DNA of 64,000 bases. Source: Hydrogenimonas sp. Its GTDB lineage: Bacteria; Campylobacterota; Campylobacteria; Campylobacterales; Hydrogenimonadaceae. Under the pieces are notes generated by a model that saw only the letters and a program-made list of their open reading frames with translations, searched no databases and was not told where the DNA came from. Below are positions 8,197-63,525 of this stretch, piece after piece; the first letter of the stretch is position 1; each line of letters opens with the position of its first letter. The DNA lies in contig AP019005.1 in the NCBI GenBank assembly GCA_003945285.1, forward strand, positions 186,001 through 250,000, read 5' to 3'. A program made the translations under genes and the position numbers.

Positions 8197-9258
8197 CTAG
8201 CGCTCCATGGATGTTGTCTTCTGCTTATCCTTGCTGTCGATCCAGATGTTGGGGACCGCACCGCCGGGTGTAAGGAATATTTTAGCATCTTTATTCGTTT
8301 TGAGAGCCTCGTTGAACTTGCCCTGTACCTCGATCTGGCGAAGCTGCAGAAGTTCGTTCGTGAGTGATTGGCTTATAAGCCTGTTGGCCTTGGCCTGGGC
8401 TTCGGCCTCTATGCGTATCTTGTCGGCCTCTCCCTGGGCCTGTATCTTCTTCGCTTCTGCCGTACCCTTTGCGAGAGCCGCTTTCTTCTCCGCTTCCTGC
8501 TGCGCTCGCAGAACCTCGTATTTCACCCTTTCAGCTTCCTGTTTCGCGATCTGAACACGCTCTATCTGATCTTTGATCTTGGAAGGAAGTACGATGGCCC
8601 GCAGCTGTACCGCTACAAGTTCAACAGGATTGTGTTCAAGCTTGTCTATCTCTCTGGCTATATCGTTTTGGATCTTTACTGCGATCTCGTTACGCTTCAC
8701 CGGAAGCTCTTCCGCTTTGTACTGGCCGATTACGTTCCTGACCACATCGCGTACCACAGGGTTTATGATCTTCTCTTCCCAGTTGAGGCCCCACTCCGCT
8801 ATTGTCTGGGGTGCATTCTCCGGGTTGAGCCTGTACTGAACGGTAAGCTCGATGTTTACGGGAAGTCCCCTGGCATCCAGCACCTCGATGGCGGGTTTTA
8901 TCAGAACCCCTCCCCTGCGGTTGAAGTCGCCCTCTCCAGCAGTGGTTTTATAGTTGACGATCCTGACCTTGGTGTCTACGACTATTACATCCTGAATAGC
9001 CGGTATGAACATGTGAAAGCCCGGAGTCAACGGCTGCGGGTCGAATTTTCCGGCCGTCTTCAATATTCCGACCTCGCCCGAGTTGATTACGACGAACGGT
9101 TTGAAGAATATCAGAAGTGCAGCCACTATCACCACTACATAAAGCAGTGTCGCCTTTTTGCTGAAGTCCTGTATGAACTGCGGAGGTTTCGGAGGACGGT
9201 TTTCGCCTCCGCCTCCGCCGTTTTTCTTGTTGAAGTAGTCGTTCATGTCTGCCGGCAT
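8197..9258 (-). CDS. SPFH/band-7 (prohibitin-like) membrane protein
   Basis: A 353-residue bitopic protein: a glycine-rich N-terminus, one membrane segment (about 36-54), the SPFH domain starting GEVGILKTAGKF, and a long Ala/Glu/Lys coiled coil (KQEAERVKYEVLRAQQEAEKKAAL, cut here for reference only to its heptad character). The C-terminus has an FLTPGGAVPNIW segment as in prohibitin-like proteins. Such proteins form large ring assemblies at the inner membrane and often steer FtsH-type proteases; that role is inferred. No NfeD or HflC partner is adjacent. The start at 9258 follows AAGGA; ATG at 9246 is an alternative. A structured repeat begins right upstream. Confidence 0.88.
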   Translation of the reverse strand: MPADMNDYFNKKNGGGGGENRPPKPPQFIQDFSKKATLLYVVVIVAALLIFFKPFVVINSGEVGILKTAGKFDPQPLTPGFHMFIPAIQDVIVVDTKVRIVNYKTTAGEGDFNRRGGVLIKPAIEVLDARGLPVNIELTVQYRLNPENAPQTIAEWGLNWEEKIINPVVRDVVRNVIGQYKAEELPVKRNEIAVKIQNDIAREIDKLEHNPVELVAVQLRAIVLPSKIKDQIERVQIAKQEAERVKYEVLRAQQEAEKKAALAKGTAEAKKIQAQGEADKIRIEAEAQAKANRLISQSLTNELLQLRQIEVQGKFNEALKTNKDAKIFLTPGGAVPNIWIDSKDKQKTTSMER

Positions 9259-9284
9259 GAAAATCCTTTTTATTTTGATTTAAC

Positions 9285-9568
9285 ACGTCTTCAGAAGCAA
9301 AGCTCCTGAAGACTACGCTGGCCGCTGTGGCACTAAAGCTAGCCCCATTCGGGGCAGGCTGTTATGTTACTTCTTTTGCAGGCCAAGCCTGCAAAAGAGC
9401 AGGGACTAAAGTCCCTACAACCCCCTAAAGCTACGAAATCAGAGATTTCGAGAAGGGGGGAAACCTAAAACAGAGTTTCGCTTCCCGCGAACAAAGTGAG
9501 CGTCTACCCCGAACGGGGCCGATTATTATGTTGCTTCTTTTGCGGGCTTGGCCTGCAAAAGGCTCCGC
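9285..9568. repeat. Family A structured intergenic repeat (copy between the SPFH gene and ilvE)
   Basis: This gene-free stretch is a mosaic of palindromes. A hairpin GTCTTCAG (9287-9294)/CTGAAGAC (9306-9313) lies against the 5' end of the SPFH gene. It is followed by the module TACGCTGGCCGCTGTGG and the GCCCC-ATTC-GGGGC stem. A core from about 9378 (AGGCCAAGCCTGCAAAAG, AGGGACTAAAGTCCCT, GAAATCAGAGATTTC) to about 9560 matches the tandem units at 24533-24963 almost base for base. No transposase, no coding sense. See the pgk copy for the comparison. Confidence 0.8.
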
Positions 9569-23530: not shown

Positions 23531-24526
23531 TTGGCTCTAAAGATTGCAATCAACGGATATGGACGAATCGGGCGCAGTGTCGCACGTATCGTCTCCAAGA
23601 TGGAAGATGTGGAACTGGTTGCGATTAACGATCTGGCCGATCCGCGGACTATGGAGTATCTTACACGTTTCGATTCCGTCCACGGCCCGATGGATGAAGA
23701 GATCTTCGTGGATGGAGAGAGTCTGGTAATCGGCGGCCGGCATATAAAGATTTTCAGAGAGCCTGAACCGGCCGACCTGAGATTTGCCGACGAAGGTGCC
23801 GATGTGGTTCTGGAGTGCAGCGGCCGCTTTCTGCGCAGGGAGCAGGTAGAGACCCACATAAAGCGCGGTGCCAAAAGGGTCATCATATCTGCCCCTGCAG
23901 AGGATGATACGCCCACCTACGTGTTCGGAGTCAACGCTTCGGACTACAGGGGTGAGCAGATAGTCTCCAACGCCAGCTGCACCACCAACTGTCTCGGCCC
24001 GATAGCCAGAATTCTCGATGCCGAATATGGTATTAGAAGCGGTCTGATGACGACGATACACGCCTACACCGGCGGCCAGAGCCTTATGGACAGCGCAGTA
24101 TCGAAAGATATGAGAAGATGCAGGGCGGCGGCGGTGAACCTGGTACCGACCGGCACACATGCCGCGGAGGCGATATACAAGGTTCTGCCGTCTCTGAAAG
24201 GGAAGCTGCACGGGCAGAGTGTAAGGGTTCCGACGCCGGATGTATCTTTGATGGACCTGAACCTTGTACTCTCGAAAGAGACGAGCGCCGAAGAGGTGAA
24301 CTTCCTCTTTATGGAGTATGCGAAAGGGGAGTTGAACGGAATTCTGGGCATCGACAACCGCTACGGCGTGAGCCAGGACTTCTGCGGAGATACCAGAAGC
24401 GCAATAGTGGCCGAAGACCTGACCCAGGTAGTTGGAGGAACGATGCTCAAAGTGATGGCATGGTACGATAACGAATGGGGTTACGCCAACAGGCTGGTCG
24501 AGATGGCGAAATATATAATGAAGTGA
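23531..24526 (+). CDS. gap: Glyceraldehyde-3-phosphate dehydrogenase
   Basis: A 331-residue type I GAPDH. The NAD fold INGYGRIGRSVAR and the catalytic C150 in SNASCTTNC are present, with the later NEWGYANR. The start is TTG at 23531, with AAGGA upstream. It works in glycolysis or, in a likely autotroph, gluconeogenesis. It is followed by a 489-base repeat mosaic before pgk, its pathway neighbour. Confidence 0.96.
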   Translation: MALKIAINGYGRIGRSVARIVSKMEDVELVAINDLADPRTMEYLTRFDSVHGPMDEEIFVDGESLVIGGRHIKIFREPEPADLRFADEGADVVLECSGRFLRREQVETHIKRGAKRVIISAPAEDDTPTYVFGVNASDYRGEQIVSNASCTTNCLGPIARILDAEYGIRSGLMTTIHAYTGGQSLMDSAVSKDMRRCRAAAVNLVPTGTHAAEAIYKVLPSLKGKLHGQSVRVPTPDVSLMDLNLVLSKETSAEEVNFLFMEYAKGELNGILGIDNRYGVSQDFCGDTRSAIVAEDLTQVVGGTMLKVMAWYDNEWGYANRLVEMAKYIMK

Positions 24527-24532
24527 GTTTAA

Positions 24533-24989
24533 AGGCCAAGCCCGCAAAAGAGCAGGGACTAAAGTCCCTACAACCCCCTGAAGCTACGAAATCGGAGATT
24601 TCGAGAAAGGGAATAACCTAAAACAGCGTTTCGCTCCCCGCGAGCGAAGCGAGCGTCTGCCCCGCATGGGGCGGACCATTATGTTACTTCTTTTGCAGGC
24701 CAAGCCCGCAAAAGAGCAGGGACAAAAGTCCCTACAACCCCCTGAAGCTACGAAATCGGAGATTTCGAGAAAGGGAATAACCTAAAACAGCGTTTCGCTC
24801 CCCGCGAGCGAAGCGAGCGTCTGCCCCGCATGGGGCAAGCTTTAGTGGCACAGCGCCCAGCGTAGCAGACAGGGGCTTTGCTCCTGTCTGCGTGTTAAAA
24901 TAAATAAAAAGCGAGCGTCTGCCCCGCATGGGGCAAGCTTTAGTGGCACAGCGCCCAGCGTAGCCTTCGGGAGCTTCGCTTCCGAAGGC
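24533..24989. repeat. Family A structured repeat mosaic upstream of pgk
   Basis: Almost the entire 489-base gap is repeat. A unit of 164 bases starts at 24533 and again at 24697; a truncated third piece spans 24910-24963. Each full unit has AGGGACTAAAGTCCCT-type, GAAATCGGAGATTTC and GCCCCGCATGGGGC palindromes. Border hairpins are GCAGACAGG/CCTGTCTGC (24865-24891) and GCCTTCGG/CCGAAGGC (24963-24989); the latter stands just before the pgk leader. The 9.3-kb locus carries the same border module, inverted relative to the core. No protein is encoded. Confidence 0.85.
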
Positions 24990-25015
24990 GTATAAATCAA
25001 AATGAAAGGATTTCA

Positions 25016-26224
25016 ATGAAGCTTCTTACCATCAAAGATATGGAGCTTGCCGGAGAGAAGGTATTTATCCGATGCGACTTCAATGTGCCGCAGGATGAGT
25101 TCGGCAATATTACGGACGATCGGCGCATACGTGCGGCTCTGCAGACAATACGATACTGCCTAGATCATGATTGCGCGATAATTCTGGCAAGCCATATGGG
25201 GCGTCCGAAGGGGGAGTTCGATGAGAAATATTCGCTCAAAGCGGTCGCCAAGAGGCTTCAGTCGCTGCTTCATCATGAAGTTACACTCGCAAAGGATGTC
25301 GTAGGGCCCGATGCCACGGCAAAGGCGAAAGCTCTGAAAGGGGGTGAGATACTTCTGCTGGAGAATGTAAGATTTGAGCCCGGAGAGACAAAAAACGATC
25401 CCGAGCTTGCCGGCAAGATGGCCTCTATGGCCGAATTCTATGTAAACGACGCATTCGGTGTGAGCCACAGGGCGCACGCTTCCGTGGAGGCGATAACCCA
25501 CTTTTTCGACAACAGCCACAAGGGGGCCGGCTTCCTGCTCCAAAAAGAGATCAAATATTTTCACAAGCTGCTCAAAAAGCCGACCAGGCCGTTTATGGCG
25601 ATAGTCGGAGGAAGCAAAGTCTCCGGCAAACTAGAAGCGCTCATAAACCTTCTGCCGAAGGTTGACAAGATGGTGATAGGCGGGGCGATGGCCTTTACAT
25701 TCTGGAAGGCCCGCGGTTACGAGGTAGGCAAGTCGCTGGTGGAGGATGACCTTCTCGAAGAGGCGCGCCACATTATGGATGAGGCCAAAAGGCTCGGGGT
25801 CAAGTTCTATCTGCCGGTAGATTTCGTGGTGGCGCCGGAGTTCAAAGAGGATGCGCAGGTCAAATATGTCACTTTTCAGGAGATTCCGTCAGACTGGATA
25901 GGGCTCGATATCGGACTTGCCTCTACAAGGCTTTTCAGGGAGGCGCTAAGTGATGTTCAGACTATCCTCTGGAACGGTCCGATGGGAGTCTATGAGATGG
26001 ATAAATTCGCCCGGGGAAGTTTCAAGCTGGCCAACTATGTGGCGGAGTCGTACGCTACAAAGATAATAGGAGGCGGAGATACGGCAGATCTGGTCCAGCG
26101 CGTAGGTGTCGATGACGAGATGACATTCATATCGACCGGAGGAGGAGCCAGCCTGGAGCTTCTGGAGGGTAAGACACTGCCGGGTATAGCGGCGCTGGAA
26201 GTGAAGGAAGAAGATGATGCGTGA
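25016..26224 (+). CDS. pgk: Phosphoglycerate kinase
   Basis: A 402-residue two-domain kinase that interconverts 1,3-bisphosphoglycerate and 3-phosphoglycerate. [44 protein letters not shown] and the C-terminal GGGDTADLV / STGGGASLE are diagnostic. AAAGGA lies before the ATG. It overlaps tpiA by 11 bases. Confidence 0.97.
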
Positions 26225-51440: not shown

Positions 51441-51449
51441 GCCGTGAAG

Positions 51450-51474
51450 AAAACGACACCTGCGTGTCGTTTTT
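51450..51474 (+). terminator. Intrinsic terminator after fabG, copy 1
   Basis: A 10-base-pair stem AAAACGACAC / GTGTCGTTTT with loop CTGC and a five-T run, ten bases after the fabG stop. Confidence 0.85.
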
Positions 51475-51607
51475 AGGCTCAAGCGGGTTTTGGCGTCTGC
51501 ACTTGTGCAGCCCGAAACCCCGGACCGCATGAACCGGGCCGGAAGTGAAGAGAGAGTGAGAGCTGACTCCGCTAGGTAACGAATGGCGAGAGGCGCCGGT
51601 GCGGAAG

Positions 51608-51632
51608 AAAACGACACCTGCGTGTCGTTTTT
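51608..51632 (+). terminator. Intrinsic terminator, duplicated copy 2
   Basis: Same stem, loop and T-run as copy 1, 158 bases further on. Confidence 0.8.
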
Positions 51633-51828
51633 AGGCTCAAGCGGGTTTTGGCGTCTGCACTTGTGCAGCCCGAAACCCCGGACCGCATGAGCAGATGGCC
51701 GAAATCGCATTCTCACCGGGGTCGGAGGCCAGGCTTGGCGAAAAAATGGACCTTTTCCGGTCAAAGCAGTACTTCATTTAAAGAAAATTTTGCTACCATA
51801 ATACGATTCATTTTAAAAGGAGAATACA

Positions 51829-60674: not shown

Positions 60675-60900
60675 GATTCAAAATTCAAGACAGATGAAGA
60701 GACGGGTTGGCGAAATCTGCTAGCATTGCGATTTGAGCGGCAACGGGGCGTTAAGAAAACCGCTCGTGCCCGAAGGGTTCCGTAGGAATTTGCGGTTTTT
60801 AGCCTCGTTGCCGCGTCCCGAAGGGCAAATCGCATCTGCGTACAGGTTTTGCCGACCCGTCTCGGGTTTTTCTCTTTACGCTCGAGTTTTGAGTTACCTT
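60675..60900. repeat. Family B long-hairpin repeat, copy 1 (full)
   Basis: The gap after the exonuclease gene is one giant imperfect hairpin. ACGGGTTGGCGAAA and GCGATTTG, CGGCAACG on the left pair with CGTTGCCG, CAAATCGC and TTTTGCCGACCCGT on the right, with AAAACCGC/GCGGTTTT nearer the tip. The left arm recurs at 63361 in the same orientation. It has no coding sense. The remainder of the 313-base gap shows no gene. Confidence 0.8.
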
Positions 60901-63360: not shown

Positions 63361-63525
63361 AATTCAAAACTAAAGATAGATGAAGAGACGGGCCGGCAAA
63401 ATCTGCCGGTATTGCGATTTGAGCGGCAACGGGGCGTTATGAAAACCGCTTTTGCCAGAAGGGTAAACCGCACCTGTGTACAGGTTTTGCCGGCCAGTCC
63501 GGGTTTGTTTGTTTGCGCTTGACTT
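63361..63525. repeat. Family B long-hairpin repeat, copy 2 (apical part deleted)
   Basis: TGAAGAGACGGGCCGGCAAAATCTGC and ATTGCGATTTGAGCGGCAACGGGGCGTTA (both near-identical to copy 1; quoted in part) are followed directly by GTACAGGTTTTGCCGGCC, so the distal right arm is kept while ~60 bases at the tip are missing. It lies between uvrB and the gamma carbonic anhydrase gene. Confidence 0.78.

Follow-up and report, generated by a model that had tools for sequence, protein, structure and literature searches.

An apparently undescribed ~85-nt repeat family with a covarying fold at gene edges in Hydrogenimonas and other Campylobacterota

Repeat copies at the gap-pgk and SPFH loci

The window, the whole 64,000-nt stretch of DNA analyzed here, spans positions 186001-250000 of a 2.19-Mb contig of Hydrogenimonas sp. 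Within it, gap (glyceraldehyde-3-phosphate dehydrogenase; 23531-24526, +; Pfam Gp_dh_N/C) and pgk (phosphoglycerate kinase; 25016-26224, +; Pfam PGK) are separated by a repeat array that begins directly past the gap stop codon and is followed by an A-rich pgk leader with a ribosome-binding site (24990-25015, +). A gene for an SPFH/Band 7 protein (8197-9258, -; Pfam Band_7), also with an A-rich leader (9259-9286, -), is preceded by a further copy. Gene names without a Pfam match (e.g., dcd) were taken from the translated sequence.

Three hairpins had been predicted here, and all were present: GTCTTCAGGAGCTTTGCTTCTGAAGAC (copy 1, 9287-9313, -; stem type TCTTCAG), with its end 28 nt upstream of the start codon of the SPFH gene; GCAGACAGGGGCTTTGCTCCTGTCTGC (copy 2, 24865-24891, +; stem type CAGACAG; 12 bp with a TTT loop); and GCCTTCGGGAGCTTCGCTTCCGAAGGC (copy 3, 24963-24989, +; stem type CCTTCGG), with its end 26 nt upstream of the start codon of pgk. 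They had been described as fixed loops on variable paired stems. The stems were indeed paired, but most of the loop proved to be stem: the hairpins in the window have 12 bp and a three-base loop, TTT (TTC, TTA), with an inner 4 bp (GAGC/GCTT, GGGC/GCTC) that also pairs, including G.T wobbles, four further pairs thus lying inside the supposed loop AAGCAAAGCTC.

The unit was larger than these hairpins, which form the last part (H3) of an ~85-nt element. A variable hairpin, H1 (5-6 bp), is followed by a near-invariant 29-nt core ending in GTAG and then by the variable H3 (11-12 bp, TTT loop). The consensus of 118 copies is TCT-H1 (GCCNN-loop-NNGGC)-WAGCTTYAGTGCCACAGCGGCTAGCGTAG-H3-CGTGT, followed by an A-rich stretch. 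The GTAG foot lay directly at the base of H3 in 104 of the 118 copies; besides GTAG, approximately 25 bases 5′ of H3 were conserved, as was the second variable hairpin upstream. The two hairpins, H1 and H3, are not related to each other and differ in their feet, and the element showed no terminal inverted repeats. In copy 2, H1 (GCCCC-GCAT-GGGGC; 24823-24836, +) is followed by the conserved core AAGCTTTAGTGGCACAGCGCCCAGCGTAG (24837-24865, +) with its GTAG foot at 24862-24865 (+). Copy 3 belongs to a 98-nt tandem repeat, with H1 at 24921-24934 (+) and the conserved core, including the GTAG foot, at 24935-24963 (+), whereas copy 1 lies on the reverse strand, with H1 (GCCCC-GAAT-GGGGC) at 9342-9355 (-) and the conserved core and foot at 9313-9341 (-). 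The latter two copies were matched at 24933-24996 and 9280-9343, respectively, by R1, a covariance model built from the nine copies of this genome.

A second repeat family had the GTAG-H3 end and a different 5′ part (GCACC-AAA-GGTGC-GYGGGC...GCCRAAGGAAAC-CAGTGTTAACGTAG), from which we infer that the H3 end is modular. It was found at the loci L164, L191, L250 19911, L272 16304, L274, L278, L279 16431, L283 15765, L311, and L060.

The rest of the gap-pgk array consists of two copies of another repeat, module A, plus spacer (24527-24822, +; genome 210533-210672 and 210690-210911), and module A with spacer also lies beside copy 1 (9373-9519, +; genome 195373-195519). Module A (CTTTTGCRGGCCAAGCCYGCAAAAG-AGCAGGGACTNAAGTCCCTACAACCCCC-GAAGCTACGAAATCGGAGATTTCGAG) is a separate dispersed repeat with several palindromes, present at approximately 45 places in the genome; it occupies 9373-9519, 24533-24672, and 24690-24836 of the window. 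It joins the element in this genome, carries on its opposite strand a GTAG adjoining a palindrome (GTAGGGACTNAAGTCCC), and occurs in relatives in tandem at ~120-bp spacing. Elsewhere in the window, an exact 87-nt repeat that includes the palindrome GAAAACGACACCTGCGTGTCGTTTTT was found at 51446-51532 and 51604-51690, 158 nt apart. Related repeats at 60676-60871 and 63362-63509 were 87% and 80% alike, and part of them resembles DNA to the left of some element copies (CGACCCGTCTC).

The genome held nine element copies at six sites. Seven lay before genes, namely dcd (two), the SPFH gene (one), pgk (two), and a gene at 1194 kb (two); the remaining two followed the stop codon of a sodium/calcium exchanger gene and that of a gene located at 1506 kb. 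Stems were fully paired in seven of the nine copies. Unpaired copies had been named as evidence against a selected fold, and the outer stems were unpaired in two copies (genome 1194287 and 1506071), but both combined a left arm of the TCTTCAG type with a right arm from the CAGACAG type or a relative of that type, so that their stems appear to have arisen by recombination between two types and not by free mutation.

Covariation of the fold and the strand that folds

The pairing was not a product of chance. Among the nine copies of this genome, 93.5% of pair cells were paired, against 87.8% after shuffling and at most 52% when partners were slid by 1-3 columns. The corresponding values for 24 gap-free copies from several genera were 98.2%, 76.0%, and at most 46.8%; for the full structure in this set, changes on both sides occurred at 17 of 21 pairs, and the covariation score was 0.678 (0.225 shuffled). 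Across all 118 copies, H3 had 98 different 5′ arms with 93.6% of positions paired (64.7% with arms shuffled), and H1, which also covaries, had 35 different arms with 98.4% paired (81.5% with arms shuffled). The original prediction of a maintained fold was thus borne out.

An unguided scan of the 29-nt core for mutual information (92 copies) ranked the pair 11-19 first (C-G 71, G-C 18, U-G 3), 17-23 second (C-G 75, U-A 15), and 10-20 fourth (G-C 79, A-U 9); the third-ranked columns, 13-17, do not represent a pairing. Because 17-23 crosses 10-20 and 11-19, we propose from these pair counts that the core covaries as a small H-type pseudoknot, which in copy 2 would pair 24847-24849/24855-24857 and 24853-24854/24860-24861 (+). 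Changes at 11-19 and 10-20 occurred in several families, whereas those at 17-23 were concentrated in one and may represent a single event. A protein-bound fold could also give rise to such short crossing pairs.

The folded strand was identified from wobble pairs, with the register set by Watson-Crick pairs alone. On the GTAG strand, the outer H3 stem contained 48 G.T and 5 A.C cells (P = 7e-10; cells not independent), and copies antisense to their right-hand gene contained 15 G.T and no A.C cells. This excess, which includes the antisense copies, indicates that it is the GTAG strand that folds, irrespective of the direction in which the neighboring gene is read, which argues against an mRNA leader and in favor of single-stranded DNA or an independently made RNA.

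Some of the paired changes are not independent compensations. Exchange between copies is suggested by the stem types common to several sites of this genome and by the two hybrid stems. These same observations, along with the similarity of copies within a genome, would be expected if template switching at quasi-palindromes and gene conversion kept the arms matched without any selection. A purely mutational origin of the pairing nevertheless seems improbable to us, as it leaves unexplained why G.T outnumbers A.C (48:5), why the core that separates the hairpins is invariant, and why the 3- and 2-bp crossing core pairs covary.

Distribution, dispersal, and placement

Of 399 genomes sampled from the order, 90 (in 18 of 87 genera) had the element according to the R1 search, as did, at a stricter cut-off, 57 of 397 genomes of a phylum-wide sample; Sulfurospirillum diekertiae was among the hosts. 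Eight relatives searched more deeply had 38, 30, 38, 13, 21, 13, 11, and 41 copies (range, 11-41). Across the 84,980 species of one collection, exact core matches were confined to Sulfurimonas, Sulfurospirillum, and Sulfuricurvum and to records with broader titles (Helicobacteraceae, Helicobacter, Campylobacterales, and Epsilonproteobacteria). Plasmid and phage record collections gave no element match; in a Mu-like phage contig (IMG/VR 3300001594_000424), one copy (1294-1350) lies between the terminase gene and the Mu-type portal gene, and phage carriage is a possible route of transfer. Three genomes (G036 545199, G146 566473, and G196 657308) share one copy that does not differ over 80 nt, and the coding flanks in the most distant of these were only 83-87% identical.

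Rfam 15, at gathering and at permissive thresholds, gave no relevant match, the hits being a tRNA in the window and weak unrelated ones elsewhere. We found nothing on such repeats in Campylobacterota in open-access papers; one survey gives counts of REP candidates in Sulfurimonas gotlandica, apparently without family descriptions (PMC12306157). The hairpins are part of an apparently undescribed ~85-nt repeat family that is widespread in the sulfur-world relatives of Helicobacter.

The element had been suspected to be amplified or mobile, and several observations agree. A relative with a 94% identical Pgk has a gap-pgk spacer of only 14 nt, and in the genome studied here the ~490-nt array occupies precisely the interval from the gap stop codon to the pgk leader. 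The compound repeat DNA was 87-99% identical at six unrelated sites of this genome, and for 58 of 96 copies, against 15.6 expected, the closest relative was another copy from the same genome. The empty gap-pgk site, the identity among the six sites, the phage-contig copy, and the strand test together support dispersal. Occupied and empty sites were too diverged for base-exact element ends or target-site duplications to be read.

Several copies have long been resident at orthologous sites. Behind the stop codon of the sodium/calcium exchanger gene, the element was antisense in six congeneric genomes, often in tandem; its stems differed among the six congeners yet remained paired, and its wobbles were still on the GTAG strand.

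Copies were placed tightly against coding regions. When the right-hand gene was on the same strand, its start codon lay a median of 26 nt from the H3 end (n = 69); when it was on the opposite strand, its stop codon lay a median of 5 nt away (n = 47). The medians on the H1 side were 28 and 76 nt, and the differences were significant (P = 0.0012 and 1.8e-6); the genes were simple ORF calls, and 116 copies had a called right-hand neighbor. In sense copies the ribosome-binding site lies between the H3 end and the start codon, for which 26 nt leaves room. The placement is thus not random, but neither is it specific to start codons. The neighbors were housekeeping genes of diverse kinds: 87 proteins matched 120 Pfam families, and no family occurred more than three times. 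No T run followed H3, the tail being GT and then an A-rich stretch in both contexts, and an intrinsic terminator was rejected.

The original prediction had gone further and proposed a mobile or amplified 5′-leader element; in such a role it would control the downstream gene. The narrow distance to a start codon in 69 of the 116 copies, with the ribosome-binding site in between, agrees with that proposal. A cis-regulatory 5′ leader RNA lies in sense orientation before the gene it regulates, however, and approximately 40% of copies (47/116) face the opposite way, with an antisense stop codon even closer to H3. The leader common to pgk and the SPFH gene, AAATCAAAAT(A/G)AAAGGA, is real, but relatives without the element keep nearly the same A-rich ribosome-binding stretch (e.g., CAAATCAAAACAAAGG and AAAAAGGATTTTC, the latter also part of the SPFH leader here), so it is the host genes' own and lies outside the element. 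We consider the leader proposal, already disfavored, highly improbable.

The main rival is a structured RNA, an intercistronic or untranslated-region module (processing, stability, or insulation) whose copies were recruited beside housekeeping genes. It owes this standing to the orientation bias in tandem gene pairs, where sense exceeded antisense copies by 44:17 (P = 0.0007) or 52:33 (P = 0.05) with two gene callers, and to the slightly better pairing of sense copies, with broken pairs in 23 of 493 cells where the upstream gene reads through the element and in 22 of 243 otherwise (P = 0.02, cells not independent). A pure DNA element predicts neither observation, and both count against the mobile-repeat reading below. 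The small conserved pseudoknot, the confinement of G.U wobbles to one strand, and the complete conservation of one copy across species would likewise suit an RNA. Against this, approximately one-fourth to one-third of the copies in tandem pairs were antisense to both neighbors, the exchanger-locus copy keeps its antisense orientation and its GTAG-strand wobbles in six congeners, no Rfam family matched, and the neighbors have no function in common. On balance, a functional RNA appears rather unlikely.

Relation to known repeats and the proposed element

GTAG next to a stem-loop is a hallmark of RAYT-type REPs (PMC2817692, PMC3733652). Similar to these, the element is extragenic, moderately repeated, and structure-based, with the foot directly 5′ of the stem-loop; the GT(A/G)G head beside an imperfect palindrome was present in 104 of 118 copies, and genomes with the element often have a Y1 transposase. 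The differences are several. REPs are set-sequence palindromes in high copy, whereas the stems here have no fixed sequence (98 H3 arms in 118 copies), and a 29-nt pseudoknotted core and a second hairpin are kept instead. Copies number 9-41, not hundreds, with 11-41 per relative, and stand in direct tandem rather than in inverted pairs. No transposase gene flanked by the element was found.

Y1_Tnp genes were searched for in the genome itself, 40 related genomes, and 31 chosen genomes, and their flanks were scanned by BLAST, by the R1 model, and for GTAG hairpins. None of the 53 loci had the element within 1.5 kb of an IS200-like Y1 transposase, and a RAYT partner was therefore rejected for these genomes. 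Four complete genomes with 5-10 R1 matches each (G164, G194, G293, and G383) had no Y1 transposase. The only Y1 gene of the genome studied here (1004517-1005287) has GGGGTCAG/GGGGTCAGGTGATAACAATAAC repeats on both sides and is of the TIRYT type, in which Y1 transposases are flanked by GGGGWSAS repeats (Di Nocera et al., PMC3733652); its flanks gave no hairpin match, and its ends are unrelated to the element.

Other known systems resemble the element in part. MITEs and IS200/IS605-derived palindrome-associated elements are likewise small, non-autonomous, intergenic repeats with hairpins near both ends, but here there were no terminal inverted repeats and no autonomous parent was found. BIMEs of enterobacteria are also composite intergenic arrays of hairpin modules but differ in order and orientation, the present copies standing head to tail. 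The element therefore resembles a RAYT-type REP yet lacks two of its defining features, and its core is new. It is best filed among the GTAG-tagged palindromic repeats as a previously undescribed variant, and the pseudoknotted core may set it apart as its own class.

The shape kept while stem letters change, and the close packing of copies beside ordinary genes, suggest that the element is small, mobile, and recognized by its fold. We give roughly even odds (approximately 0.5) to the reading that it is an ~85-nt, non-autonomous, fold-recognized, intergenic mobile repeat family of Campylobacterota, which accommodates the data on fold, strand, placement, and dispersal together; the lack of an element-linked Y1 transposase locus and the old residents at orthologous sites were counted against it. 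Such a mobile repeat would spread as a single strand and would be recognized by its fold, GTAG foot, and core, not by its stem sequence. The enzyme would act in trans and, by analogy with GTAG-tagged REPs, would most plausibly be an IS200/RAYT-like HUH (Y1) nuclease; with none of 53 Y1 loci carrying the element and four host genomes lacking Y1 genes, this enzyme is proposed by analogy only. Insertions would survive only between coding regions. Resident copies may duplicate in tandem and swap sequence with other copies in the genome, an exchange that would renew stems as matched pairs and sometimes leave hybrid, unpaired ones. More tentatively, the element could represent a new class of pseudoknotted, fold-recognized mobile repeat that acts either in the form of single-stranded DNA or through an RNA of its own. 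Such a repeat would be modular, would insert with H3 toward the edge of a gene, and would require a recognition protein.

If the mobile-repeat reading is right, REP-like palindromic repeats extend to a phylum in which we found no such family described, and they include a mobile element whose identity is a pseudoknotted fold and not a sequence. The free paired changes of stems at orthologous sites make recognition by fold directly testable. Because copies abut genes so closely, they are relevant to the question of how compact operons such as gap-pgk-tpiA tolerate insertions. The case also cautions against reading such hairpins as gene-specific leaders.
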